From positions 10,511,513 to 10,575,512 of the forward strand of contig NC_092577.1 in assembly GCF_037975245.1 (NCBI RefSeq): a stretch of DNA of 64,000 nucleotides, written 5' to 3'. This document shows positions 5,848 to 45,908 of this stretch, in pieces; positions within the stretch are counted from its first letter, which is position 1, and every line of letters begins with the position of its first letter. The notes below the pieces were generated by a model. That model had not been told where the DNA came from. It made no database searches and worked only from the letters and a program-made list of their open reading frames with translations. Source of the stretch: Apostichopus japonicus (Eukaryota; Echinodermata; Holothuroidea; Aspidochirotida; Stichopodidae). Made by a program: the position numbers and the translations under genes.

Positions 5848-8800
5848 ATGGCAGACAACGAAATGGACGAAGATATGCTCCTCTATCAGTTATGGAAGAA
5901 GAACCGTGAGAGATGTCCCCGATTGTGGGTACATGCTATAAATGAAAAGCGCGAGGAGCTCGGCGAGTACCACACTCTGGTAAGAGAACTCTCTAGCCAC
6001 GAAGACAAGTTCCAAAATTACTTCAGGATGAACGAGAACCAGTTTGAGCACATTTTGGACCTCGTACAAGATGACCTCAAAAGACAGGTGACAGTGACAC
6101 AGCTCAGAAAACCAATTTCTGCTCGTCAAAGATTAGCGATTTGTCTCAGGTAAGCAAGCGTTGATATTGCAGTAATGAAGTCTACCAATAACCACTTGCC
6201 GTTTTCAAAATAATTGACAATCTTCACCGTAGCGTAATCTTTTCATGCGACACGAGGGAAGGAAGGAAGTAAAGGTCTTAAAAGAGGGGAGATTGAACAG
6301 GGCAACAAGGAGGGCTGGGAGATCTTGGAATTCGGAGTCTACGCCTACACCGGATGAATTGGCAGGCCTCTTTAAAAATAAATGTGATACACCATTGTAA
6401 ACAGCTGATCTGGCACTGTGCCACACCTTGCTACCGCGCCCAAGTAAAAGAAAAGTGGGGGGCATGCAGGAAATGTGTGGAATGTTTGAAACTGACATGG
6501 GGCGGCGCCTTAGGGCGTCAAGCAAAAGCTATGACCGCCAGGGAAAGATCTCATCTAGCTGAAATACATCTATTAAACAGTTGGCTATCGACTATTGAAC
6601 ACATGTAATCTTTGTTTAAATCACTGGACCCATATTTCATGTTCCTTGATTAGTCAAATGACACCTGATAATTTGTTGAGACTAATTCTTAAATAAAAAA
6701 TTGATATGCTTACAAGAATACGACAAAGTTTCATATCAAATTCATTCGCTTTATTTTCATTCTCTTCATGACTTTTCCACTTGTTTCAACTTTTATACCG
6801 TGTTTGCATTAACTTGGCATTTCAAAATCATAAATTATCAAAGGGTGGATCTCATACATTTAAATTGCAATTGAAATGTGCAAAATGTTCATGCTTGGGT
6901 ATTAAAATAAAATGCCCACATATATCAATGTGGCATTGTCTAATGTTCTGGCTACTTAGAGAGAGGTGCAAAAGGATACATTGTTGTTGACCATGTGCCT
7001 TTCTAGGACTTCCTGTAAATTAACATTTAACATTTGGTAAAAGAAATAATACAACACTCTCTTCAACCGGCCAGAATTAATTAATTTCAACCAGAAATCA
7101 AAATCAGATTCCCTGCCTTATGAAAAGTAACATTCACCTCTGATATGTAGTTTGGAACTTGTTACTATTATTGATCAACAAGGGTGTTACCTAGGTAATC
7201 AGACTTACTCAGCCAATGGAAGAATTGAAGGCTGATAAGAGCAAAATTTCTTTTACAGTAATACAGGACAGTACAAATTCCTCTCAGTTAAAATAGTAGC
7301 AAGTCTGACACCCGTCTCAAAATTCCTAAGAGACCTTAATGGAGACCTGAAGTTAACCTTTAACCTCTCAGCCACATGCTACTGAAAGAATGAACCACAA
7401 ACCAATAATTTCAAATTTGTATTGTAATGGTTGCAAAATTTGTGCTTCCTTCAAGAATATGTAAACAATATGATGAACCAATCAATTAAAAGATGATGGC
7501 CCTTTTATAGTTCCTCTTGAACCCAGAATTAAAAAAATCCTGTGAAACAGAACTTCTCTTGAGAACACGCATATGAAGACTGCCAGAAGCCTAAAATTGC
7601 CTGAATTGACACAATTTTTGCACAACATGTACTTCCATTCATGCTCTTAAACATGAAAGCTACAAAACCAGACCCTGATTGATAACATATCAAAAAAGAT
7701 GTTCTCCTACTGCAGTTTGGCACTTTTCCTGAAGGAGAACATTCTCACGGATTGATATAGACTCTAATAGGAGTATGCCATTCTAAGAGCACTGCTGTCT
7801 GTAAAGGAAAATAACTATGGGATGCCAAAAGGGAAAGTATGAGTTCTTAAATAAATGGATTTCCACTCCACTACATAAATTTGCCAATCATTTCGGGACT
7901 GACCTATTTAATAGAAATATAAAAATACAAAATGGCAAAAATGGAATAAATAAATCATCATTATAAGAAAGATGATATCGATCGGCTTCTTCAAATTCAT
8001 CTGATGATATTTTTGATGCAATTAATGGATTTGACTGTATTCTGATCTTTTCAAGGCTCTAAGGGTTGATCTAACATTTTTATTTCTGCTCTGTGAATTA
8101 TCTGATGAATTTCAAATTTAATTTCTGATTGGAGGTGCATAGGGAAATTACGCACTGTGCATGCCATTGATTTGAAGAAGTGATCGATATCATCTTCCTT
8201 AGTCAGAAGTTGCCTTTTCTCTTTAAAATATTCGAGGATGATCTGTCTCCAGATTCTGCTCCTTCCTTTTACGGGTAGGCACCTTTGGAGATAGAATGCA
8301 GGGAGAGTGGATTGGTGAAGTACCCCCACATGCTTCCTCTAATGCCATATCCAGTTCTGCGGACGTGGATTGAGTATCTGAAGGAAGATGATCCACAGAT
8401 CTGCTTTCTTCCAAGTTACCACACGTTCTAAATGTAAATTAAAAAATAACATAAAATAAAATAAAACATATTCAATGACAATCATCCATTGAAAATCAAA
8501 AGGGATTATAAAATGCAAAACAGTAGAGTATAATTGTGCCAAGAACCATCCAAAATACCAACCTACAGTTCTTTTATTATCTTTGTCAACAAGCAAATTT
8601 CAACTAAAATCTGGTTTTACCCAATTCCATAGAAATTGAAACACCACAGAAAATGTTGCAATTATAACCAAGGTTTTTGCAAGAAAACGTGAAGGTGATA
8701 ACATATAACCTTAACAAGAACTTTAATTTGAAGTTTGTCAAGCTGAGTCTACTAACTACTTTGCAGATTCCATGAACCAAATACAAAATGAGAGCTACAA

Positions 8801-11622: not shown

Positions 11623-13130
11623 TATTCAATCTATATATAACGAACTACCTTTAACCTTTGTCATGTAGTCGTAAGACCATGGGCGTCTTGTCGTAAACAA
11701 ATATGTTAACAAATTTCTAAAATTTGGATTACTTCCATATATCAGTATATCATTTTAACACTAATGACAACACATATTATTCTCATGTACAGATTGCATA
11801 TATCATATTACTACCTTTGGCGGTTCGTTTTCTATGTATATAGAGGATCCACTGGTAACGGCCAGTACCACCCAATCCGAAAAGGTGTGAGCTAATATAT
11901 GTTATTAACGTGTAACATATTATGCATTTATATGCCAGGGTGTTATAACACACTAACACGTGTTATGTTTTGGGAGCATGCGAGAGCTAGATATGTTAAA
12001 TATATAATACAGTAAATCGTAGTGGTATTATAATTTTTTCTTGTTTTCTATATATATATATATATATTTTTATATAATATGAAATATTTTTATATTTTTT
12101 ATTTTTTTATTTTTTTTTTATTTTTTTATTTTTTTAATTTTTTTTTTAACACAGGCCGCAATAAAATGTGCCTCTAGCATAACACGTGTTATCATGTTAT
12201 AACACAAATGCATATAAATGCGCAATATATTCAAGTCGAAAACGCTATTATAAGCAACTGTACAATTCGGTTAGGGTGCCAGTACACTCATTCGGTATTA
12301 ATTTTTCTTTCTGTGCTTGACTAATTCTATATTCAATTTATATATAACGAACTACCTTTAACCTATGTCATGTAGTCGTAAGACCATGGGCGTCTTGTCG
12401 TAAACAAATATGTTAACAAATTTCCTAAATTTTGAATTACTTCCATATATCAGTATATCATTTTAACACTAATGACAACACATGTTATTCTCATATACAG
12501 ATTGCACATACGACTACTTTTCACTGTTTGTTTCCTATGTATATAGAGGATCCACTGGTAACGGCAAATACACTTCATTCGGTATTCATTTTGATTTCCG
12601 TGTTTGACTAATTCTATATTCAACCTTAATTCTATCTTTAACCTATGTAATGTAGTCGTTAGACCATGGGCGTCTTGTCGTAAACAATTCTGTTAACAAA
12701 TTTCCTAAATTTTCAATTACTTCCATATATCGTTTTAACACTGACGAAAACATACCATAGCCTCATGTACATATTGCACATAAAGTATGCTTACCTTTCA
12801 CTGTTCGTTGTCTACGTATATAGATGATCCACTGTAACGGCCAGTAAACTTCCTTCGGTGTAAATTTTCTTCCGTGCTTGACAAATTCTATATTCAATCT
12901 ATATATATATAACTCACTACGCTTAACCTATGTCATGTTTTCTTTAGACCATGGGCATCATGTCGTTAACAATTCTGTCAACAAAGTTCCCAAGAAAACA
13001 TATCATAGTCTCATGAACAGATTGCGCAAATATCTTATGCCTACCTTTTCACTATTCGTTTCTATGTATATATAGGACGCACTGGTAACGGCCAGTATAC
13101 TTCCTTCGGTATTACGTTTTTATCTATATG
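11623..13130. repeat. ~290-bp tandem repeat array upstream of TRIM gene 1, distal part
   Basis: About four copies around the anchor gaggatccactggtaacgg (near 11843, 12547, 12821 and 13074). Each has a downstream block with accatgggcgtcttgtcg and a donor-like GTGAAAG|GTAGGC on the minus strand in most copies. Interrupted by the 410-bp element at 11869-12278. Confidence 0.85.
11869..12278. mobile_element. 410-bp non-autonomous inverted-repeat element (MITE)
   Basis: The ends are CACCCAATCCGAA and, reverse-complemented, CACCCTAACCGAA. It is flanked by the direct repeat ccagtac at 11862-11868 and 12279-12285. The other repeat copies show the uninterrupted site. The interior is very AT-rich and has mirrored blocks with AACACGTGTTA and GTTATAACAC on both sides. 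There is no coding capacity. The 7-bp duplication does not identify a superfamily. Confidence 0.85.
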
Positions 13131-14190
13131 CTATCTATATATAAATCACTATGTCATGAGTCGTATGACCGTGAGCGTAAAACAGAATTCAAAGTTGAAC
13201 AAAAATTCGCAAATAGCACTATACAGAGTATTCAAAAGTCCATGACGGTCGCCATGGCATTATTCTTTCCGACCTTTGTGTCACATTCCAATTTGCACTC
13301 TACCATACTGATGTTTGTTGATATAACCCCCAAAAAAATCAAAGATCACTAGTAATAGAATTGCAAATGCCCAAAACTGACAAATTATACCATATATGAT
13401 TTTAAACGTTGTCTGTGTAGCCATCACGAACAGAAATATGAACCTTTTGAGTTATCATTACACCAGAAGGTAGGTCTTGTTTTGTTTCCCCGTCATTTAA
13501 ATTCCTTGTATGCAAATTAGGAAGAGTCCATATGGCCTATGTGGGTGAACCTTATCCATGTCCAACGGCTAGATAGTCCATAAAAAGGAGATCCAAAGCC
13601 TCCTCCGATTCAGAAATTTACATGCAATAGTACGTGTGCAGGATCGGTATATAGTGTGCCAATGCGCTCCGGTACGTTTGGTTGAGCGAAATTCGAATCG
13701 TTTTTGCTAAATTGTTTGTATGTAATCCAGTTTTTCAAATTGGCCGGTACTAAAAATGTAACCATCTTGCGGGTAGGGTGAGGCATTCGAGAGAAACAGT
13801 TTTTAAAAATTTTAAAAACTTCCTGTTATGTCTTAGCTTGTTTGTAACTGAGAGGTTCAGTTGATTTAAGTTTTTTACTGGGCTCACGAATTTCTTAAAA
13901 AAAGGTTAAAAATGTCAAAAATGTAAACTTATCTTTGAACCAAAAGAGTCCACATGACCCACTCAGAAAAAGGTTGTTTATTGATGCAGGTTGTTTTCTG
14001 TACAAAATAAAGCTATAGGAAGTTCTGCTGTGTATTCTTATCTCAAGTTATGATTTCCCACCCCCCCCCCCCCAGTTTGTTCGGCAGCATGCTAATTCGA
14101 TGGGTTGGTAAAATAAAATGACCTCATTTTACCACTTAGTCTGCAACGCCTGCCGCATATTTTTTCTTGTTTGATGGTCTTTGTGTGAAT
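13131..14190. other. Spacer between repeat array and unit boundary, unit 1
   Basis: Collinear with 21120-22161. Contains no recognisable gene. A tract of about 14 C residues lies near 14050, and the C tract is much shorter in unit 2. Confidence 0.6.
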
Positions 14191-14800
14191 GCTATATGAT
14201 TAACTACACTGTAGACATGAACATATTTCCACACAGTGTTAACACAAAGGTGTTAAAAATGCTATACAGGCTAATTGTAGAGCCTGAGGTCGATTTACGA
14301 CCGTGGCAGGTCGATTACGTAATCACAAAACTGTCCTAGCTATAGCGTGCTAATTGGAGCCAATAAAGCAGATCTTTAAAGGAGATATGAAGCCTAGCCC
14401 AAGTTTCTGCTCAGAGAATACCATTTAGCAGTACGCTCTTCAGTTTAGACAGAAACAACACAAATGCTTGAAACATTTTTTTCAACCTTAAAATCGATTT
14501 ATTTGTTACCCATTAAATTCGCCAGTTTATTTGAATTCCAACAGTTCCCGCCTGTTTCGTGACGTAAGCGAGACACATATTGCATTTCGAAACATTGAAA
14601 CCTTCGGAGCTTAACATTTCCTACGTGCCGTTAACGATAACTGAGGGAAGATGTTGCCAAATTTTTCTTCCGAAATACTTTCCGGACTCGGGAATTTAAA
14701 AATAAAAAAAGGGAGAACATGGATGCATAAGGACTTGAATGCTAGCAATTCGAGCCTGAATACATAGTGGATGAACTGAGACAACGAGACTTAGAGCTTG

Positions 14801-15007
14801 CTACACAGAAATGGTAGTTATGCTAGTACTACCAAAACTAGTAACAGATCTGCGAACGAGGAACAATCCTAGTGCTTTTGGGCTTTTTTGCGGTATCTTT
14901 CTCTGGAAACCTTTTCCCGTCAGGAATAACATATAACTTAGTTTTCCCTTCCCTGCGCCTTCCTCTTCTCTCCTGTTTACACAACCAAATGCTTGGCACT
15001 CCGGCAT
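14801..15007 (-). pseudogene. THAP-type zinc-finger remnant, unit 2
   Basis: From the ATG at 15007 the minus strand reads MPECQAFGCVNRREEE then GKLSYM. This is the start of a THAP domain (MPxxCxAxGCxNR), which binds DNA through a C2CH zinc site. The second Cys/His pair is not found in frame, and the later text looks frame-shifted. It is probably a piece of a THAP transposase or THAP gene duplicated with the unit. Unit 1 lacks it. Confidence 0.45.
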
Positions 15008-15028
15008 TTTGCACCAACGTCCGAACAA

Positions 15029-17849
15029 TTTCCGAGAGCACTAGATTTAGTGTACAACTCATATTGAGAGAGGGGATTTTATTAATTTAAGATCTGGCTC
15101 GCTGACGTCATTTTTCTAGCACCTTCATTATATAATAGCCACCAACACAGTAGGTGTGAAAAATTCATTAGAAAATTCCTAAAAATTCCGTGAAAGGTAG
15201 TTTAGACTAGTTATTTCACAGAGGGTGTAAGAATATAAGTCTCTGCTAAGAGGTCACTGTAAAACCCCAGGGTTTATTTCTCTTCTAAGTATAGGTTGTT
15301 GATTGGATATTTGTAAATTAGCCTCGTTATTGATGGCTGGAATATACATCACTATTAGCCACGAGAACCGTGACCAGTCTTGTAATCAAACTGTCGGGAA
15401 AGACTGCTTGATCGTATAACTATATACTATCAATAGATTTTGAGAAAAATGCAATAATCTTTAATCATAGTCCTGTCCTATTCATGTGATTCTCATTAAA
15501 CTGATCACAAAACCTTGTACAAAGCATATTAGTCTTTTTACATGTTAACAGAGGCCGGAAATAAGGAGAAATGAACATCATGTTCCAAGCTTATCCCCAT
15601 TCTCGCCCTTTCTTCTCCAATTTTACAGATATTTCATAGAGATTCCTTCGGCAGATACTTAAAATTCATACAAAACACATTGATACGCCGATGTCAGAAA
15701 ACATTGAAAGTTTAGGCAAGAAGTCCAGATCCCTGGTTTAAGGTTCCCAATGCGTTCGGAATGGAATACTTGGTTTCTATTAAAATTGCTAACTAACATA
15801 ACCTGAACCTTGGCTTTGTTCCGTTTTTCCGCGTCATTATAGTAGAAAGTTACCCGGAGAAGACAAAAATGCAGACTGGAACAGAGATGCCAAATTTTGA
15901 AAATCAGTTAGAGTTTTAAGAAAATGAACACTGTTTTGTGGTATTTTTATTGACACTTTCCATAGACGTTACATTACGATTACTCAAAACATACTGAAAG
16001 ACTTCTAGGAAAACACTAATTTTTTTTTTTTATATACATTAAAATAAGAGAATAAGGAATAATAAACAGAAAAGTTCAAAAAGAAGAAACTCAGCAACAG
16101 AAACAAAGCGAAGTAGAATCAGAGAAAGTGTACCCCCCCCCCTCAAAAAAAGGAAGGATATTTTATCAAGCATTACTTGCAAGTTAGATTCCTGAAAATA
16201 GAAATGTCTTCATCGCTTCTTCAAAACTGCTTATGGACCCTATTTATTTGGGAATATTTGAATGTTTTCAAAGTTGTTGACAGTTTGTGATTGCATCTGG
16301 CAATATCTTATATTGTGTGCTGTGAACATGGCAACTGATCTAAAGTAGTCTGTCTTTCCTTGTCACATTCATATCATCTATCAACATAGAGATCTTACAT
16401 TTCTAGGTAAAGTGGCATTTTGATGACTCTTCAAATAAAACAGCTGCTCAAACTTTCAAAGTGTATGGTACATAAAGTTATGAAGCAGATATGGGATACA
16501 GGGGAAAAAGATTTACATTTATTACTTAGAATGATACCGGTAGCATGCACATGTTTTTAAAGGTGGGGTGAGGAGAATTTAAACTTTTCCCGACTGGAAA
16601 AGGTATGGGCTGAATTCCTCAACTGGGGTTGGGTGGGTGGGTGGGGGGGGGGGGTTGGGTATGAAGGTCTCTTCTCTACCTTGAGAAAAGTGTAAATGTG
16701 AAAGGATGCATTCTGAGGCATAGTTAGATTATAATTAAGGTTATATAAGTAATAAGTATTATTAGTGTTAATAATGCTGATAAATAATAATGCAAAAATT
16801 ATATATTTTGTACAGAAGAGGGAATGCCCCCCCCCCCCTTGATCATGTCAATAAATGTTACATGCGGTAATAACGTTATACATCAGCCGTCGGTCATGTC
16901 AAAGTCAATGTAACATTTCATAATATTAACCGAACGACTTCATCTGACAAAGGTTGAGATTGGCGACCATTTAATGATTGGTGAACCACGGTCCATGTGT
17001 CCATTTCAACATACTGATACAAACATACGATTATTCCACATAATAATACTTCCATTTAAATTAGTACCTCGTGTAACTTAAAGATTACATACATTGTATA
17101 GACCAAGAAAAATTTATATTATTGATAGGATGATATTTGTAGAATCAAAGTTATGAAACATGAAGAAAAGGGTACTGACATCGGTGAAAAGATCTGGCAA
17201 TTGAATCACAAAAGTGAAGAATAAATCATCACATTAATTTCAGAATCCTATTATTAAAATATTGAAACAAATGGGGTAGAATATTAAATAAATTATCCAG
17301 TTTTTAATTCTTGTGTTGTTTCAATCGAGTTGATATTCCGTTAACTTAACAAGTTTAACTTTCGTAATTATAACTCTGTTTGGCGTGGCGTCACCTTCAT
17401 GTGAGTTTTAACATGTTGTGAGCTGATATAACGAGCTGCAGTGAACCCATTCTTAGCTGAAATTACTGACCCATTTTCAGCATATCCAATCAAAACAGTA
17501 TACCTACAGAGACTTTCATATTTTCGCATTGCGCCCGTGAAACTCTGAAATTCATCGCTTCAACCTTCGTTTTAACATTCGTTTCCGTGTTTTTGCCCTT
17601 ATGTATTTGCTGTCACTTACTGCAATGATGTCAACACCTTAGTCATAAATGCTCTTATTAATAGATTTGCTTAAAACGTATTTTGCGGAGTTATCATTTC
17701 GTATGTGAAATAAATATATATTATTCTGTGTTTGATCATTTACAAATGATTATTTGAAGGTAGATGAGGGTTTCTGTAATGGAAACGTTTTTCAATAATC
17801 GCTGACTACAATTTAAGAAGACTATTTTCTTAATTCTTCATCAGATTGC
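15029..17849. other. Non-coding 3' flank of TRIM gene 2
   Basis: Collinear with the unit 1 flank. Includes a T tract near 16020, C tracts near 16133 and 16827, and a G-rich tract near 16630. No gene recognised. Confidence 0.55.
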
Positions 17850-20024
17850 CTACAACCCGTACGTGTACAGTTTCGCTGATGTAGATGATGCTACCAATAG
17901 TTTCTCCTCATCATACGTTCTGCTTATAGTCAGACGAAAAACTATGTCATTTATTGGTTTTGTTGTTGCTAGCTGTTTGCCATCCTGATTGTATTGTACG
18001 ATTACTCCATTAACGTTACCGCGGATAGATGCTCGCCACAATACGTAGATGAAATCGTTTACGTCTGTACAAACACTGATAGGTATGAATTGGCATCCTT
18101 CCAAATCTGGTTTTGTGAATTCATACATCAGTTTACTCTCTGTTCCCTCCATGTTGATTGCGTATGCTCTCTTACATTTATTGTCACCACATACCAGGAT
18201 ATTACCTCTATGTACAGTGATATCTTGCAACCCACTGATTACATCTGGTAGCTTTATGGTGTGAATGTAATTCAACTTATTATCAAATACATACACATAT
18301 CTGCTGTTAGTGCCAACAAAGACGTGCTTGCTATCAGGATCGGTCGTCACACTCCACACCAATCGATCTGCTGGAAATTGGGATATCTTTTTGCCTCTGT
18401 ACGATTTATCACGGACATCGTAAATACCGATTTCATCGGGATAACAGACGGTTACAACTTTAAACGTTGACAACGAACAACAGAAACGATATGGGGTAGA
18501 CGTCTTGGCAGACTTAATCTGTTTTTGTGTTAGTATGTCTCGTCTTCTGTTCATGACAGTAATATGGGAGTGCTCAGGTAAAGACTCGCCAGTGATGACG
18601 ATGTTACCATCCCTGGTGCTTGTAATACCACTCATTTTCCAACCTTTAGTTTTGAAGTCCTCAACAATTAAAACAGACTCTGGATGATCAGCGATTATTA
18701 CGTCATTGGTAATGGATTTTGCTAAATCACTGAGATTAACATCCGATAACGATTCTATTTCTGGAAAGTCCTTTTTCATTTCTTCTATCAGAGTTTCGCT
18801 GGCTGCTCTAATATCAGGGATACACTGAGCATATGTCCACTTGTCTTTAGAAGCGAAAATAGATGAAGTCGTAACTATAAAGTTATCATACCGCTTTACA
18901 ATCTGGTCACAATAATCTGATAGTTTCTTTAGTTCATCTTCGTTCCTTCTGGGAAGTTGTTCTGTAGCGGTTGTGAAATTCTTTACACTGGCTTCTAAAC
19001 GTCTAAGTTTTCTACGGAGTTCGTCCTCAATTTCATCATACCTTTCTTTTAAATCTTCTGTTTCGTTGTCATATTTTGTATCTGTTGCTTTATGTTGGTC
19101 AGCATATTTTACTTTCAATTGGGCCAATTCTCGTTCGAAAAGAAGCCTCGTTTGTCCCTGTTCTTGTCTTCTTCGGTGTTCTATAGCCCGTAAGCTGCTT
19201 CCTTTGCTATCGGCAATTTCGGCAAGTTGTTTATTAATCTTATCTACCTGCGGTTTCTGCTGATCGATCAAATCTGTTCTCATTTTGGCGAGGTTTTCCT
19301 TCGTATTTCGGGTAATGTTACTGATTTTATTTGAAAAGTCGTATAATTTAGGTTTTTGTATCTCTAATTCAGCCAGTTTCTGTTCGAGCAATTGTCTTTC
19401 ACTTTGAGCTAACTCAGTTACGTCATGTAGGTCATGACCTTTGTGTTTACTGTATGTACAAATCACACAAACTGGTACATTTCCGCAACTACTGCAACAT
19501 AATATGGCGCTCTCTTTCACATGTGTATGGCACCTAGGATCTTCCGTAAGTGCTGCTAATTTATCCAGTGTTAGGTGATTATCTTCAATACTTTCCAATT
19601 TCAGAGTATGTGGTTGATGATCTATAAACATTTTATTGATGATGTGAATCTCGTAGCATTCTTCACACAAAAAATCGCAACATTTAAAGCAGTATGCTGA
19701 AGCTATCGTGTTCTTTGAACAGCTGATGCATTTCTTTAAATCTTGACTTTCAAAACATTTTTGCAATTGTATAAACTCTAGTATACTCTTCATATGAAAG
19801 TCAGTCTTGAAATCGTCAACCCCATTCTCTGGTATGTCATAATCCTGTTTACACATTGGACACTTAACCGCCCCATCTTGGCTGATTTCAACGACACTTT
19901 GCAAACATTCTCTACAGTATCGATGCAGACATGGCAGCAGCTTTGGTTCCTTAAAGTGATCCAAGCAAATCGGACACTGGAAGAAATTATCTTCCATGTC
20001 CCTAAGAGGGGTAGCAGAGGCCAT
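17850..20024 (-). CDS. TRIM-like RING/B-box/coiled-coil protein, copy 2
   Basis: Predicted 724 aa, the same length and domain order as copy 1, with scattered substitutions. RING, both B-boxes and the whole C-terminal region are intact and all zinc ligands are kept. In this copy an in-frame ATG also occurs 12 codons upstream (20058-20060), but it lies before the conserved splice acceptor and so in the predicted leader intron. I keep the inner ATG, which has a better context (ACGATGG). Predicted cytosolic E3 ubiquitin ligase. No lesion seen. Confidence 0.9.
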   Translation of the reverse strand: MASATPLRDMEDNFFQCPICLDHFKEPKLLPCLHRYCRECLQSVVEISQDGAVKCPMCKQDYDIPENGVDDFKTDFHMKSILEFIQLQKCFESQDLKKCISCSKNTIASAYCFKCCDFLCEECYEIHIINKMFIDHQPHTLKLESIEDNHLTLDKLAALTEDPRCHTHVKESAILCCSSCGNVPVCVICTYSKHKGHDLHDVTELAQSERQLLEQKLAELEIQKPKLYDFSNKISNITRNTKENLAKMRTDLIDQQKPQVDKINKQLAEIADSKGSSLRAIEHRRRQEQGQTRLLFERELAQLKVKYADQHKATDTKYDNETEDLKERYDEIEDELRRKLRRLEASVKNFTTATEQLPRRNEDELKKLSDYCDQIVKRYDNFIVTTSSIFASKDKWTYAQCIPDIRAASETLIEEMKKDFPEIESLSDVNLSDLAKSITNDVIIADHPESVLIVEDFKTKGWKMSGITSTRDGNIVITGESLPEHSHITVMNRRRDILTQKQIKSAKTSTPYRFCCSLSTFKVVTVCYPDEIGIYDVRDKSYRGKKISQFPADRLVWSVTTDPDSKHVFVGTNSRYVYVFDNKLNYIHTIKLPDVISGLQDITVHRGNILVCGDNKCKRAYAINMEGTESKLMYEFTKPDLEGCQFIPISVCTDVNDFIYVLWRASIRGNVNGVIVQYNQDGKQLATTKPINDIVFRLTISRTYDEEKLLVASSTSAKLYTYGL

Positions 20025-38415: not shown

Positions 38416-39040
38416 TCATCTTATTATCGCTCTTGCTTTACCTCCTTTCATCTGCAGGCATGGAATTACACTTGTTTGATACATACCGTAAGTGTACAGC
38501 TTTATAGACTCATTTGTTGCTATTAAGAGTTTATCAGTACCATCAACTTCTAATATGGTTATACAACGAGCATCACCGTCTACTTCTCTTTTTGTTAGTA
38601 ACTTTCTTCCATTCTGACTATACTGTAGCAGGATACTTCTCTGTTTACCTGAGAAGTATGTCGACCATAACATGTAGATGAATTGATTCTTGTCTGTGCA
38701 AACACTGAAAGGTCTCCAGTCACCTCTACCAAGAAATGCTCTCATAAATTCATATATCAGATTACCCATCATGGTGACTGCATAAACTTTTTTAGCAATG
38801 CTATCGCATACCAGGAGACTACCTCTATGTACAGCGATATCGTCCGAGTATTTGATTACATCTGGTAATGTGATGGTGTGACTATACCTTAACTGATCAT
38901 CAAATACATACATATATCTGCTGCCAGTACCAACAATGATGTGATTGTTGAGGGGATCGAAAGCAACACAGCTCACAAATCGATCGTGGGGCCAGTCATT
39001 AATGACGTCACTGATGTTTCTCTTGCTAAGTACACCACCA
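38416..39040 (-). pseudogene. TRIM-like gene 4, 3' part (C-terminal propeller region), split by transposon
   Basis: Reads GGVLSKRNISDV, then DRFVSCVAFDPLN through IKLYTYGMYQTS to a stop at 38416, without lesion. It is the direct continuation of 44126-45758 and closely matches the same part of the intact gene at 56163. It lies downstream of a 5.1-kb insertion and lacks its own start, so it is unlikely to be expressed alone unless the element is spliced out. Confidence 0.9.
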
Positions 39041-39480
39041 CTCTCTTAATTCGCAAGATTGACTTTTCACTCTTAAAGATTGAATTTTAAATCTTTGGCA
39101 GATTGATATTAGGGACCAATCGGCTTAGATTGACTTTCAATCTGTCTTAAGATTGAAAAAAAAATAGTCTTAAAAGATTGAAAGTCAGTGTTTTTTAAGA
39201 TTAATATATCAATCTAATGGATTGGTTTTCTTAATCTAAATTCGATTGACTTTGAAATTTCAATCTAAAACGATTGTAACTATCAGTGAATTAGATTGAT
39301 AAAAGTCATTCCATACGATTGACTCTTCGATCATAAAAACTGACTTTCAATCTGTTATAGATTGAAAAGGTAGAAATCTAATAGATTGACTTTAGAATCT
39401 AATTTAGAATGACTATTAGTCTAAAAATGTTTTTTATTTATATGATTGGGACTGTCAATCAATATGATCATGATTGTCAC
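39041..39480. repeat. Left subterminal AGATTGA motif cluster
   Basis: More than a dozen copies of AGATTGA or TCAATCT in both orientations, often as GATTGACTTT, within about 440 bp. Such clusters at transposon ends usually bind the transposase; that role is inferred here. Confidence 0.75.
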
Positions 39481-39654
39481 TCGTTTTGCAGTTTGTCTAT
39501 GTTTAAGCTTTCAACGTTAATTTTGTAAACATATATTGAAACAATTGGTTTTGTCACCCAATTAAATTATTCTCAAACAGAAGCTATTAACATAAGAGTA
39601 TATGTCCACTTAGTTTCGCTTGAGGAAAACACCAGAAACAGAAAAGACAGAATG

Positions 39655-39890
39655 TACTTTGTAGACGAATTATATTCATTTACTGATGCAGTGAAGAAAA
39701 CAAAACATGCAGAACATGGGAAATACTGGAGTTCCATAATTTTAAACATTTTCAGGTGCTAAAGATGAAGGCTAAAATAAAACATAATTAAAACACTGGC
39801 ATGCATTTACTGATGCAGTGATAAACAAAACATGGGAAATACTAGAGTTCCATAAGTTTAATCATTTTTATGTGCTAAAGATGAAGGCTT
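39655..39890. repeat. Short tandem duplication inside the transposon
   Basis: The run ttcatttactgatgcagtg... with catgggaaatactggagttcc... and gctaaagatgaaggct occurs twice (about 39677-39770 and 39804-39890) with small indels. Confidence 0.7.
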
Positions 39891-40132
39891 AATACTGGTG
39901 TTCCATAATTCTAAAGTTAAAGAATGAAGTTTGCAATAACATACTGAAGATTTTATCAGGTGTAAAAGGAAAATTTGAATAATTAGCCTTTCCTATAGAT
40001 ACAATAGGCAAATAAGAACCTGAACTGGATTAAAAAAACTGAGGCTATGTCCCTTTTGGTTAAAACAAAACAACCTGGTAAGAATACCGAGCTGAACTAA
40101 AATTATGCATGCTTGTTTTAAATGCTAAATCT

Positions 40133-40138
40133 TTTATT
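40133..40138 (-). terminator. Poly(A) signal of the transposon-borne gene
   Basis: AATAAA on the minus strand, about 40 nt after the stop codon of the exon at 40177-40497. Confidence 0.55.
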
Positions 40139-40176
40139 TATATTTCATCAGTAAACACCATTTTAAGTCAATATCA

Positions 40177-40497
40177 TTACTTGGGTGGTGCTCTTATTGC
40201 TGCACCAAGAGCTCGGACCTGTGGTTTTGCTGTTGCTGGAGGTAGTACTTCATAGTTCATTGCAGCAATAAATTCCCAAAATTGTTGCAAACTTGGAGAG
40301 TACTCCACATTAAAAACATAATGACACTCAAACAGTCTGTCTAAAGCATCCACCACATGAAGCCCTCCTGAAATTGCAATGCGGTCCAATATTACAAAGA
40401 ACTGTTTCGGATCTTTTTCTGCACCAAGGGATAGCAACAATGGCTGCTTGAAACGATCTTCTTTCAACTTTGTTGCTTCTTCAACATCTGTTCCTTC
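40177..40497 (-). CDS. Last exon of a transposon-borne gene; C-terminal domain like SAMD3-type uncharacterised proteins
   Basis: After the acceptor CTTGTTATCCACAG the exon encodes 106 aa, including FKQPLLLSLGAEKDP, FFVILDRIAIS, VVDALDRLFECHYVFNVEY and FWEFI, then a stop. The pattern (a short hydrophobic block, 'FVILD', 'ALDRLF..HYVFNV.Y', 'F..FI') is like the C-terminal end of large families of uncharacterised or SAMD3-like proteins in fish and invertebrates, recalled from memory and not searched. Function unknown. The first exon of the same gene is probably 43574-43643. The middle exons expected between them were not found, so this copy may be internally deleted. Confidence 0.5.
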   Translation of the reverse strand, partial: EGTDVEEATKLKEDRFKQPLLLSLGAEKDPKQFFVILDRIAISGGLHVVDALDRLFECHYVFNVEYSPSLQQFWEFIAAMNYEVLPPATAKPQVRALGAAIRAPPK

Positions 40498-41620
40498 CTG
40501 TGGATAACAAGCAGAAAAGAGTAATAACTGTAACACATGGTAATGCTCTCCTTTTATCCATTTTCTGAAATGAGGATGATTTCTGCAGTTGAGCTAACTC
40601 TTTAACGCTTAAGCTTGAAAAATATGTTCAACTGCTTTTAAAGTAGCATTTTGCGTTTGGTCGCCGTATTATACTTTTTTGACATGTCCATCAAGTTTTT
40701 TACATATATCAATCACAAAAGAGCCAACTAAGATATTTATAAGATATTTGCAGATAATGAGAAAAGTGTCCACGACAAACTCGATATTTAAAATTAATCG
40801 CATACAGTTCCCCCAAACCTACTAGTCTGAATTCAACCAATCAGAGATATGCAGGTTTAGTGATGAGCCGTTGCTAAAAATAGATTCAAGACTTTGCGTT
40901 GGTACAACCAAAGAGTTGTAATGGAACTCCCTGGTACAACTGCCATATAGACTGTACACAAATCAAGCATGGTGTTGTATTATGGATTGGTCAATGACGT
41001 TCGTAGTGTATATTCATATTATCGGTGAGGTTTATTGAGATTCCAACGGATAATATCTTGGAGAAAAACACAGTTGAAAGTTGCAAAATGTTCAACTTTT
41101 ATGCCACCATTTGAAGTAAGATTTAAATAGATGGGCTAGTTATGTATGTCGTTATGGCATAGTGGAGTCAGTGAGGTTGAGAAAAATCATAGAAAAGCAC
41201 GCAAATTGTTTTATTGCACATGTAATTATGTATGCACAGTAACCGTAGAAGGTGTACCGTAACAGTGCAATAAATGTACTAGATAGTCTATACTATCCAC
41301 ACTTTTGCCATCTGTGGGCACTGTGCTTGATATTATGATATTATGCCGATATGGATTATAATATTGAACTGACAAGAGAAGTCACAAGCCTTTACCAATT
41401 TTAATGAGCAGTAAACTTCTTGCATATAAGTACAACATGATATGTACAAGCATTAAGCATCACTACACACTTAACCCTACTGTCCAGAGAATACACACTT
41501 TTTACATATATACTGCACATATATACAGTTTCAGTATGACCAACCCACAGCTGCTGACCTTGTTCTGTGAACTGCTTGTAGTTCAAGGGTCCCATTAACC
41601 ATTGGGCAATAAGGTGTATA

Positions 41621-42594
41621 CTATGGCGCGAGAAAGCGGAATATATTACGTACAAATATATATCTCTAAAAAAAATATACAATTGAGTGAAATGCGCCCT
41701 GCACCACTGACGTAACAGTTTACCTGCCTTACAGATTTCAATAGGCACTTGCGGTAGATCGCAGGAAATTTGAGCTGTGCAAATGACTTTCACACGTTCG
41801 TTTCCTTTGCAAGGTTTGGCAAACTGCTTACGTAACACACCGGATAACGTTCCAAACTAATAACCTTGAAATGTGAAGAAGTGAGCAGTTACTGTTAAGC
41901 CGGCTGGTTACGTACGGTACAGAAGGCTTCGCTGTCGAACGTACCGTAGTACAATCAGGGAGTTGTTATGGAATAATCCCTGGTACTATCATGTGCAATG
42001 TGATATCGCAAACCCACTAACAATGAACTGCATTAAGATTCTGAGCAAACATGTGCGTTTTATGAATGGCCAGTGTAAAGAACAGGCTGGTCACTGCTGA
42101 AGTTACGGAACATCTCAGTCAGCACTTACAGAGCTCCGTACTTTGTACAGCATATATATTTTTCGCACAGAATATATTTTTCGTACAGAATATATTTTTC
42201 GCACAGAATAGGTCTTGAATATTAGAGAATATATATATTTTCTTTACACACAATAAAAATATATTTTTGCACAGAATATAATTTCTCCTGTAGAATATAT
42301 ATTTTTTCTGTCTCAGAATTTATATATTTTGCTAGAGAAAAATATTTTTCTGTCAGAGAATATATGTTTTGGTACTTTGTACAGCATATATATATTTTTC
42401 GACCAGAATATATTTTTTCGCACAGAATAGAATTTTGTTGTTAGAGAATATATATTTTCCGTACACACAATAAAAATATATTTTTGCACAGAATATAATT
42501 TTTCCTGTAAAATATTTTTTTTTCTGTCTCAGAATTTATATATTTTGTTAGAGAAAAATATTTTTCTGCCAGAGAATATATATGTTTCTTAACA

Positions 42595-42649
<55 letters not shown>

Positions 42650-42841
42650 GAAAATATATATTTTTCTCTTAGAGAATATATATTTATATTATAAATGTTT
42701 TTGTGTCAGAGAATATATTTTTTTTTTCAGAATATATATAAATATGTCTAAAATGTATTTTTGAAGTAAACCATGTATATATTTTGCAAGTAAAGCATAT
42801 ATATTGTTGTACACAATATATTCCGCTTTCTCGCGCCATAG
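41621..42841. mobile_element. Nested 1221-bp TA-flanked inverted-repeat element (Tc1/mariner-like MITE)
   Basis: Perfect 27-bp terminal inverted repeats starting CTATGGCGCGAGAAAGCGG, with TA on both sides (41619-41620, 42842-42843). There is no transposase. The right half (42138-42800) is very AT-rich: two copies of a unit of about 234 bp starting tactttgtacagcat (42138, 42373), built from tatatttttcgcacagaa-type words, then an AT run at 42597-42646. An open frame crossing its left end (41401-41838) is not credible. Confidence 0.9.
42597..42646. repeat. AT dinucleotide microsatellite
   Basis: Uninterrupted (AT)n of about 50 bp. Confidence 0.97.
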
Positions 42842-43573
42842 TATCCTCATGAGGGTTTCTCCTAGCTAGTAGTAACTGGAATGTGATTAATGATTTATCA
42901 TTTGATGACTTTTTCTCCTATACAATTCTAGCGTGATATTATACTATTCTAGACTGTCACTGTGTGAAGAATTTTGTACACTCTGCACAAGGGATGTGGT
43001 GGGAAGGTATGAAGGAAACACAGCACTGTAGTGTTTAACAGTTGATTTTAGCACTAGCAAGGGCCAAGGCTAGGTCTAACGTTAGGCCTTGCCTGCCATA
43101 GGCCTAACAAGTTTCAATGTGAATATGGCGATGGTCTTTATCTATCATGCTGCTAGACTACACAACCGAAGTTGAATGAATGTTTCAAATGTATCACGAT
43201 AAAGCCTAGGCCTACTGTAATTGAATTAATCCGCATGCACATACGCATGTGATTTTCTCTGCAGTGCGTTAAACCTCATTTCGCCAAAAGTCACAATAGA
43301 CACTTGCCTAACTTTAAGTCTAATATAATTAAAGTAGGAAATGCAACAATAAAAGAAAAGGAAAATTGAAGATGGGCAGATACACAAATTAAAGGAGTAA
43401 ATGAAAGCGTATAAAACGAGCATTTTGAAGTACAGACAATAAGAAAAGCGTAACGTTAAGCCTAACGTTATCATAGGCTTAGTAGATCAGCAACTAAGCA
43501 GACTGAACAGCGAAATGCTAGGCTACATGATCGACAACTAGCTGAAAGGTGTTAAAAAGTCAAAAATACGAAC

Positions 43574-43643
43574 CTTCTAGAATAGTGATTATCTCCTCCG
43601 TGAACTCTTTCTTCGCCAGAAAATTTCTTACGGTTCCTGCCAT
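43574..43643 (-). CDS. Probable first coding exon of the transposon-borne gene (start of a SAM-like domain)
   Basis: From ATG 43643 it reads MAGTVRNFLAKKEFTEEIIT then ILE, ending at the donor GAAG|GTTCGT in phase 1. The text looks like the first helices of a SAM domain (FL...F.EE.I..LE), as at the start of SAMD3-like proteins. Two CCAAT boxes lie 210-260 bp upstream. It is on the same strand as, and upstream of, the 40177-40497 exon. A single short exon is weak evidence alone. Confidence 0.4.
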
Positions 43644-43849
43644 CTTTCTTTAAATGAGAAGGCTTCTTCGAAAGGTTTTAAGAAACTGAACTAAAATACA
43701 CCGCTGTTTTGGCACAATCAGTCAATCAGTACTGTGTACTATCATATACGTTTCATGCAGTGCGTTGTGCAGAGCAGTATACAGAAGACCGGTATAATGT
43801 ATTACGCTGTGTGTACGTACGCGGTGCAGCAGTGGGTATTTGGTTTTGC

Positions 43850-44125
43850 GAAATCTGATTGGACAATAGGCAGCGTTGGTATTTGTTTTGGCGTAATCTG
43901 ATTGGATAAAAGTCAATCTTTACAAGACTGACTTTTATTTGCACCACGTGACTTGATTCTAGCGTTTTCATTGGATATATCTGTAAATCTAAAAAACGAT
44001 TAAGTCAAGGATAAGACGTATTCAATCTATTAGCTTAGATTTCAGTTCATTTTCAATCAAATAGATTGAAAACTACTGTCAATCTTAGCTACCACTGACT
44101 TTGTCAATCTTACGAGTTAAGAGAG
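43850..44125. repeat. Right subterminal AGATTGA/TCAATCT motif cluster
   Basis: At least seven copies (e.g. agtcaatcttt, attcaatctatt, atagattgaaaac, gtcaatcttag), mirroring the left end. Confidence 0.7.
43855..43905 (-). promoter_or_regulatory. Two CCAAT boxes upstream of the transposon-borne gene
   Basis: CCAATCAG on the minus strand at 43855-43862 and 43898-43905, inside a short duplication (gcgaaatctgattgga / gcgtaatctgattgga). Confidence 0.4.
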
Positions 44126-45758
44126 CATGCACATCATAAATACTGACTTCATCACGCAAGCAAGCTGTTACAACTTTGAAGTTTGATAAAGAACAACAGT
44201 AACGTAATGCGAAGGACCTGGACCTCTGATTCTGGATCTGATCTTTTCGTACAACTTTACCTTCCTTGTTGATCACAGTGATATGTGTGTAACCTTCTGA
44301 TTCATCACCAGTGATGACAATGTGGCCTTTCCCGCTGCTTGCAATACCATTGATTCCCCTACGTTTACCTTTGATTCCCAAAACGTCAATAACGGACTCT
44401 TCATGTTCAGTTTCCGTGACGTCATCAAAAGTTACTTTAGTTATGTCGCTAATTGGAAAAACATATGAAGATGTAAAGTCTGGAAATTCTTTTTTCATTT
44501 CTTCTATCAGAGGTTCACATGCTGCTCTAATATCTGGAATACACTGAACGTATGTCCAATCGTTATTAGAAGCAAGAACAGACGAACTCGTTATTGTTAA
44601 GTTCTCATATCGATTAATAATCTGGTCAAAACTTTCCGAGATATCTTTAAGTTCATCTTCATTTCGTTTTGCAAGTAGTTCTTTCGTTGTTGTCAAGTTC
44701 TTTAAATTAAGATCAAGTCTTTCAACTTTTCTTGACAGTTGTTCCTCAATTATATTGCAATTTTTTTTAAACTCTTTACATTTATCATCATATTTTCTTT
44801 TAGTTGTTTTCCTGATGTTGTCATATTTCTCTCTTAGTTGGTTCAATTCTTTTTCATAATCAGAACTCGTTTGATTGTCTTCTTCTTTTCTTAGGTTTTC
44901 TATGTCCAATATCCCTCGTTCTCTCACATTAATACGTTCAGCAAATTTATCTCTAATTTTGTGTGCCTGCTCTTTGTGCTGTTTTATGAAACTTTCTGTC
45001 ACATTGACAACAATTTCCTTTAATTTTATAGTTGTGTCTTTAACTTTCTTTGGTAAGTCGTATAGTTTAACTTTGTGTATATTAAGTTCCGCTAGTTTCG
45101 GTTCGAGCAATTCTCTTTCACTCGTTGCTAGTTCTGTTACGTCGTGTAGGTCATGATCTTTGTGTTTACTGTATGTACAGATCACACAAACCGGTAGATT
45201 TCCGCAAGTACTGCAACATAATTTGGCATTCTCGTTCACATGTACATCGCACATAGGATCTTCCGTGAGTGCTGCTAACTTATCCAATGTTAGTTTCTTT
45301 GTTTCAATATCGTCCAATTTCAGAGAGTGTGGTTGATGATCTGTAAGCATTTTACTTTTGACGTGGACCTCGTAACATTCATCACATAGAAACTCCCTGC
45401 ACTTAAAGCAGTATGCTGAAACTACAGTATGCTTTGAACAGCTGATGCATTTCTTTAAATCTTTATTTCCAAAACATTTTTGCAATATTATGAATTCAAG
45501 CATACTCTTCATATGAAAATCAGTCTTGAAATCGTCTACCCCATTTTCCGGTACGACGTTATCCTGTTTACACATTGGACATTTAACTGACCCGTCTTGG
45601 CTGGCTCCAATGACTGCTTTCAAGCAATCTTTACAGTATCGATGAAGACATGGTAACTGTTTCGGCTCTTTAAGTTGATCCAAGCAAACAGGACACAGGA
45701 AGAAATCGTCTGGCAAGTCTTTTAGAGATGTAAGCGAAGCCATCGTTGTGGTAGACAT
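44126..45758 (-). pseudogene. TRIM-like gene 4, 5' part (RING, B-boxes, coiled coil), split by transposon
   Basis: Open from ATG 45758 (MSTTTMASLTSL) through the C3HC4 RING (CPVC...CLHRYCKDC...CPMC), two B-boxes, coiled coil and the first propeller-like strands to SIYDVH, where the transposon begins. In the insertion the frame runs on for a few codons (LLTRKIDKVSGS) to a stop, giving a truncated protein without most of the propeller. Together with 38416-39038 it makes 2256 nt, exactly the length of the intact gene 5. Truncated RBCC proteins can still multimerise, so a residual or dominant-negative role is possible but speculative. Confidence 0.9.
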
Positions 45759-45763
45759 GATTT

Positions 45764-45908
45764 CTGCAATATACAAGGATATAACGGATCAAACTAACCG
45801 TTATGCCATAAACTTCTTTAGTCAATCCTCAAACGTGTTTAACAAAATAAAGAGAGTTAGCAAGTTCTAAACTTGTATGATATTTGATCACGCTGGCGCG
45901 CGCACTAC
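45764..45908 (-). other. Predicted 5'-leader intron of TRIM gene 4
   Basis: Donor GATGCAAG|GTAGTG (45909/45908) and acceptor TATATTGCAG|AAATCATG (45764/45763); 145 nt. The same sites are conserved in gene 5. Confidence 0.6.

Follow-up and report, generated by a model that had tools for sequence, protein, structure and literature searches.

A 64,000-nucleotide stretch of the Apostichopus japonicus genome (contig NC_092577.1, positions 10,511,513 to 10,575,512; hereafter the window) carries a 5,085-bp element that is very probably a young deletion derivative of a two-gene CACTA/RAG (CMCT) transposon, the SAMD3-like protein of which may play the role of TNPA. We are all but certain of the two-gene layout as such, and consider the chances evenly balanced that the SAMD3-like protein, by analogy with TNPA, acts on the subterminal repeats. 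The element can be classified; what is new about it is the conserved SAMD3-like partner gene. The whole analysis covers one genome and draws on sequence and predicted structures.

Long relatives and the transposase they encode

We searched the whole source genome (671.6 Mb, 35 contigs) with both ends of the element. The left-end and right-end searches match the same 14 genomic places, comprising 12 short copies (the window copy included; 5.0–5.5 kb, mutual identity 98.8–99.5%) and two long copies with the same ends, one of 19.2 kb (C17:20282803-20302018) and one of 16.0 kb (C10:10814621-10830639). The 2-bp flanks are identical in all 13 copies that have both ends intact (nine TA, two TG and two CA). 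Since the window copy matches the long ones block by block at 88–96% identity but lacks their middle, it is an internal-deletion derivative of longer elements that was subsequently amplified. All short copies retain the last exon of the SAMD3-like gene, and the deletion copies kept only the terminal inverted repeats (TIRs), the subterminal repeats, SAM exon 1 and this last exon. The short copies are young (approximately 99% identical), and the system may therefore still be active.

Read in the sense of the SAMD3-like gene, the 16.0-kb copy (family C10) contains SAM exon 1, an intact open reading frame (ORF) of 868 aa, SAM exon 2, exons 3–8 and exon 9. The order is the same in the 19.2-kb copy, but here the ORF is frameshifted near 8.5 kb and the end of SAM exon 2 is absent. 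The 19.2-kb copy also holds a non-LTR (long terminal repeat) retrotransposon of ∼4.9 kb (CCHC ORF1, APE/RT ORF2; element coordinates 13075-17975). A related complete element, A14, is 14,898 bp long, has ends CTCTCTTAA and is flanked by a TA duplication. An earlier note on this DNA, made from the window alone, had proposed a search by the ends for other copies and for a full-length relative. Both exist, and in the latter the complete SAM-type gene and a transposase lie between the ends.

The 868-aa ORF consists of one exon on the same strand as the SAMD3-like gene. At least 52 relatives occur in the genome, and many of these have intact frames. The ORF itself has no Pfam match at E < 1, and two members of its family reach 27.5 bits against PF02992, for which the cut-off is 28.6. 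Compared profile to profile (hhalign) with three ORFs of this genome that are Transposase_21-positive, the family reaches a probability of 99.5% and an E-value of 1.9e-22 over 421 columns. In an alignment of 10 proteins, D309, D404, C423xxC426, D490xxH493 and H637xxxH641 are invariant and E661 is nearly so; these catalytic motifs line up with those of EnSpm ORFs and are the ones described as the signature of the CMCT clade (PMC12730594). The N-terminus bears two C2H2-like fingers that are conserved across families.

The predicted structure of the transposase (pLDDT, the predicted local distance difference test score, 76.7) resembles RAG1 with a Z-score of 18.7 and a root-mean-square deviation (rmsd) of 4.4 over 465 residues, and it matches BbRAGL, the amphioxus RAG-like transposase, and HzTransib with Z-scores of 16.7 and 14.7, respectively. 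A Foldseek search finds RAG1/Transib-type structures with E-values down to 4.9e-10. A Foldseek comparison with viral structures gave no matches, and a viral origin was rejected. Judged by profile and model, the 868-aa ORF encodes a DDE transposase with homology to TNP2 of CACTA/EnSpm and with a predicted RAG1/Transib fold. The element had been described as unclassified, fitting no standard superfamily neatly and without a recognisable transposase. The first part of this description is overturned by the full-length relative; the second is true of the window copy and wrong for the 16.0- and 19.2-kb elements with the same ends. A known transposase in a full-length relative had been named beforehand as a finding that would speak against the reading, and it does remove the label "unclassified" while leaving the identification as a transposon intact.

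Residues 704–840 of the C10 transposase (coded at positions 5983-8583 of its stretch) make up a BAH-like C-terminal domain. Folded alone, its core reaches a pLDDT of ∼95 and its best match is the BAH1 domain of DNMT1 (105 residues). The top structural matches are BAH-containing chains, but their Foldseek E-values of 0.005–0.07 are moderate, and a sequence search with PF01426 (BAH) did not detect the transposases. On a RAG-fold transposase, such a domain is a possible chromatin-reading module.

The SAMD3-like partner gene

With splicing as predicted, the SAMD3-like gene of C10 has nine exons, all junctions of which are GT-AG, and the joined frame codes for 477 aa. The A14 protein (459 aa) is ∼55% identical to it; the exon chains are colinear and the genes share all eight intron phases (1,0,2,0,0,0,1,0). 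The N-terminal SAM domain (Pfam SAM_1, E 2e-5, residues 3–54) also matches SAM domains in the PDB, among them those of ANKS3, BICC1 and tankyrase. Since a complete domain results only from splicing exon 1 to exon 2 over the 868-aa ORF, we place the transposase ORF within intron 1 of the SAM gene in C10, and sequence puts it there in A14 and B22 as well. In D7, SAM exon 2 lies immediately upstream and the transposase starts just beyond the splice donor. In E5 (C5:10757711, positions 6208-6213 of its stretch) and its twin (C12:19953875), the last SAMD3-like codon is followed by ATGA, in which the stop overlaps the start of the transposase; this arrangement suggests translation re-initiation and possibly a termination-reinitiation dicistron.

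To what extent the two genes belong together was assessed in nine transposase families that are 26–64% identical (C10, A14, B22, C1, D7, E5, F10, H7 and I13). SAMD3-like exons are present on the sense strand in all nine, the weakest case being H7 with two exons (E 1e-5 and 3e-4). The antisense strand, scanned in six of the families, has no such exons, and neither do four control stretches of 16 kb each taken from the window. Among the matches listed, the last exon lies within 30 kb of the transposase in 20 of 52 cases, always on the same strand, compared with 0 of 19 control PF02992 loci; assuming uniform placement, the chance of such pairing is ∼3e-24. Two of these 20 pairs, separated by over 25 kb, may be chance neighbours. 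Pairwise identities of the transposases and of the SAMD3-like proteins, compared in seven families, are closely correlated (Mantel r 0.95, exact p 4/5040). Because all nine families carry the gene and the two proteins co-diverge, the SAMD3-like gene is, as far as sequence comparison can tell, an old, maintained and conserved component of the transposon and not chance cargo. The earlier suggestion that SAM-type families owe their copy number to being coded by transposons is thereby borne out, at least in part.

We also observed at least 10 identical-scoring copies of a SAMD3-like last exon that are 46% identical (C9:3761657, C6:13795137, C12:31346697 and others). They have no transposase among the matches listed and probably belong to another transposon family or its deletion derivatives.

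We propose that both proteins could be made from one transcription unit, by alternative splicing or re-initiation. Oligomerising via its SAM domain, the SAMD3-like protein would bind the subterminal repeats, which are specific to each family (AGATTGA in the window family and AGACTGA in A), and would pair the ends and recruit the transposase, in the manner in which TNPA serves TNPD in En/Spm. The RAG-like transposase would serve as the nuclease, cutting at CTCTCTTAA and inserting at a staggered 2-bp target (TA preferred over TG and CA), and the short copies would be mobilised in trans. SAM domains of the ANKS3, BICC1 and tankyrase type form polymers, which would suit arrays of sites. A single base separates the subterminal motifs of the related families, in keeping with a binder and ends that evolve together.

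Alternatively, the SAMD3-like protein may be essential without being a TNPA-type binder, acting as a regulator, an anti-silencing factor or a host-interaction factor while the zinc fingers of the transposase bind AGATTGA or AGACTGA. We regard this as a serious possibility that falls somewhat short of probable. The two N-terminal fingers are conserved across families, and SAM domains like those of ANKS3, BICC1 and tankyrase need not bind DNA. TET/JBP genes are recurrent accessory genes of CMCT transposons (PMC12730594), and they or RAG2 would then be the appropriate parallel for an accessory factor. The nested one-unit layout and the subterminal repeats, however, have their match in En/Spm, in which it is the spliced product that binds to the repeats (PMC2613891).

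It is very unlikely that the gene is a mere passenger, a SAM-domain gene of the host that an otherwise ordinary transposon took up on one occasion. CACTA and Helitron elements are well known to capture genes, and the SAM gene is rich in introns, as a host gene would be. Nevertheless, the gene occurs in every one of nine divergent families, its divergence follows that of the transposase nearly one to one, its intron phases are kept between families and its frame overlaps that of the transposase at ATGA in one family. In addition, both proteins are under purifying selection (pS 0.79/pN 0.31 and pS 0.74/pN 0.25, where pS and pN refer to synonymous and nonsynonymous sites; synonymous sites are saturated). 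Copies lacking the exons had been named in the earlier note as the sign of chance capture; this is contradicted by the short copies, all of which keep the last exon. Chance cargo is thus largely refuted here.

The window copy and its insertion site

The coordinates of the window copy and its surroundings are collected in Table 1. Its 23-bp TIRs are imperfect and match at 21 of 23 positions. When the element is removed and its flanks are joined with one CA, a continuous TRIM-type ORF of 761 aa results. This single open frame independently confirms both ends and the 2-bp CA duplication, which had been recognised from the window alone. The insertion breaks a single-exon TRIM-type gene (RING, B-box), and since the empty site still reads as one frame, the disruption is recent.

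Of the AGATTGA motifs, 13 fall in the left 450 bp and five in the right 450 bp, and the part between these has none. Dinucleotide-preserving shuffles give means of 0.36 and 0.10 and maxima of 3 and 2, respectively, in agreement with the clusters reported before at both ends. The window copy retains only SAM exon 1 and the last exon of the SAMD3-like gene, and the two do lie on one strand, as had been claimed. The CCAAT boxes of the claimed promoter are present as well: two of them (ATTGG at 43858-43862 and 43901-43905) lie ∼215–260 bp upstream of the ATG of SAM exon 1, where their promoter function is putative. Pfam, run on the ORFs of the window, gave nothing useful among the element's own ORFs, and Rfam gave no matches on the window.

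Table 1. Positions of the transposon copy, its parts and its surroundings in the window
Feature	Position	Strand	Basis
CACTA-like transposon copy, non-autonomous, internally deleted	39041..44125	- (genes on minus)	Same ends on 12 short and 2 long genome copies
Left TIR, CTCTCTTAATTCGCAAGATTGAC	39041..39063	+	Inverted-repeat search and copy comparison
Right TIR	44103..44125	-	Inverted-repeat search and copy comparison
Left target-site duplication, CA	39039..39040		Flank comparison, empty-site ORF
Right target-site duplication, CA	44126..44127		Flank comparison, empty-site ORF
Left subterminal cluster, 13 AGATTGA in both orientations	39056..39389		13 observed, 0.36 expected
Right subterminal cluster, 5 AGATTGA	43913..44110		5 observed, 0.10 expected
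SAM exon 1 of SAMD3-like gene, MAGTVRNFLAKKEFTEEIITILE.., phase-1 donor GT	43574..43643	-	Reconstitutes whole SAM domain with exon 2 of long copy
Last exon (exon 9) of SAMD3-like gene, ∼106 aa, including stop codon	40177..40497	-	Sequence comparison
Nested AT-rich insert, 46-nt terminal inverted repeats, outside the system	41618..42844		Inverted-repeat search
TRIM-type host exon, 3' part	38416..39040	-	Empty-site ORF
TRIM-type host exon, 5' part (RING and B-box)	44126..45788	-	Empty-site ORF

The nested insert is ∼1.2 kb long, AT-rich and has inverted ends ATACTATGGCGCGAGAAAGCGGAATATATT... Pieces of it recur at more than 25 other places, and the variant differs in three short copies.

Class, SAMD3 and known systems

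From sequence and modelled fold, the window element is best read as a CACTA-like lineage of the wider CMCT clade in an animal genome. CMCT stands for CACTA/EnSpm-Mirage-Chapaev-Transib (PMC12730594). The element is filed there and not in EnSpm because two strict EnSpm features fail, the CAC..GTG ends and the 3-bp duplication. Target-site duplications (TSDs) of 2–5 bp are a feature of the CMCT clade (PMC12730594), and they measure 2 bp in all 13 copies, in A14 and in both D7-lineage copies; the catalytic motifs and the predicted RAG1/Transib-type fold are those of the clade as well. Clustered subterminal repeats at both ends, a feature of EnSpm, are also present. The 5-bp TSD of Transib and RAG is not found, the duplication being 2 bp here, and neither the window family nor D7 has the Plavaka termini TGT..ACA or CATCA..TGATG.

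The window family, A14 and the left end of B22 begin with CTCTCTTAA. The D7 lineage has ends CACTCTAAAAAA..TTTTTTAGAGTG (CACTCT..AGAGTG) and TA duplications at two independent sites (C7:10993862-11005819; C3), and its canonical CACTC..GAGTG ends tie the group to CACTA. No convincing pair emerged when inverted repeats were sought to define the ends of C1, those of I13 and the right end of B22; these ends are probably lost or outside the stretch examined. A wholly new superfamily, unrelated to known ones, might be argued from the ends CTCTCTTAA, the 2-bp TA/TG/CA duplications and the missing Pfam match of the 868-aa ORF at E < 1, yet it is hardly credible, being ruled out by the Transposase_21 profile match and the RAG1/Transib fold, and opposed by the CMCT catalytic motifs and the canonical ends of D7.

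Several observations weigh against the account of a CACTA-like element with a TNPA-like partner. The termini of the window family are CTCTC..GAGAG and not CAC..GTG, and its duplications are 2 bp and not 3 bp long. In D7, I13 and F10, it is SAM exon 2, not exon 1, that precedes the transposase ORF, and no SAM exon was found in C1, H7 and E5, for the last of which a short upstream stretch was examined. Pfam gives no match for the C-terminal half of the SAMD3-like protein, and its DNA-binding role is therefore argued by analogy. For the BAH-like domain, the match is moderate (Z 8.9), and splicing, co-transcription and DNA binding are predictions from sequence.

Vertebrate SAMD3 is an uncharacterised gene of unknown function. 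When a profile built from the transposon proteins is compared with an approximate sequence of human SAMD3, three blocks align colinearly (E 8e-11 for a database of 20,000; the best of 200 shuffles reaches 1.8), a resemblance that we treat as a lead. On the same approximate sequence, the vertebrate protein would share with ours a SAM domain followed by the three colinear blocks; unlike the transposon gene, vertebrate SAMD3 is a host gene without a transposase. It is quite possible, though at somewhat less than even odds, that the animal SAMD3-like families, vertebrate SAMD3 included, represent the second, TNPA-like protein of a transposon lineage that is ancient and related to RAG1, and that SAMD3 was domesticated and the transposase lost. 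If this is true, the domestication of SAMD3 parallels that of RAG1/RAG2. SAMD3 would have been either domesticated from a transposon or captured by one, and its origin becomes directly testable.

In a wider sense, our results suggest a transposon background for a widespread "unknown" animal gene family, the members of which started as parts of the transposon machinery or still serve as such. Membership of transposons would explain the copy number of large SAMD3-like and uncharacterised animal gene families, as seen in one genome, and for annotators this means that many SAMD3-like gene models may be transposons. We found no link of SAM domains or SAMD3 to CACTA or other transposons in the literature covered, outside of which lie Repbase and subscription papers.

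The tnpA gene of maize En/Spm has 11 exons and houses the tnpD ORF within its first intron; its product TNPA attaches to the subterminal repeats, and neither protein is dispensable (PMC2613891). The present elements resemble En/Spm and the other CACTA elements Tam1 and Tgmt in that the transposase ORF is placed in intron 1 of a multi-exon partner on the same strand. Further features in common with these systems are subterminal repeats clustered in two orientations, many internal-deletion derivatives and a DDE transposase that, judged by profile comparison, is of the Tnp2 type. The present elements differ from these systems in their CTCTC..GAGAG instead of CACTA ends, in a 2-bp instead of a 3-bp TSD and in their animal host. 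Whereas plant TNPA/TNP1-type proteins share little sequence, the partner here is SAMD3-like and conserved in all families examined. The system would thus be an animal counterpart of TNPA/TNPD in which the accessory protein is recognisable.

SmTRC1 and its relatives are animal CACTA elements with 2-bp duplications, the second proteins of which are reported to show no detectable conservation (PMC1636069). Together with other animal and fungal TRC elements of the CACTA type, they share with ours the 2-bp TSD, a Transposase_21-related transposase and an extra protein (alternatively spliced in SmTRC). In contrast to SmTRC1, the second protein is conserved and identifiable here, and the TIR sequence differs.

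With RAG1/RAG2, ProtoRAG (BbRAGL) and Transib, the transposase shares the predicted fold over ∼430–480 residues (Z 14.7–18.7) and a zinc motif of the form C(2)C/H(3)H, which lies between the second D and the E. A two-gene arrangement is common to RAG/ProtoRAG and the present element. Differences from RAG/Transib are the TSD of 2 bp versus 5 bp, a SAM-type partner versus the kelch/PHD protein RAG2, and the BAH-like C-terminus.

Plavaka (termini TGT..ACA or CATCA..TGATG) and ESTA (defined by TA TSDs) were both described from fungi (PMC12730594). With these and Lanisha, the present elements have in common the CMCT catalytic motifs and, in the case of PlavakaA and ESTA, a 2-bp and a TA TSD, respectively (PMC12730594). 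They are set apart, on the descriptions alone, from Plavaka by their termini, from ESTA by TSDs that are not only TA, and from both by the fungal hosts of the latter (PMC12730594).

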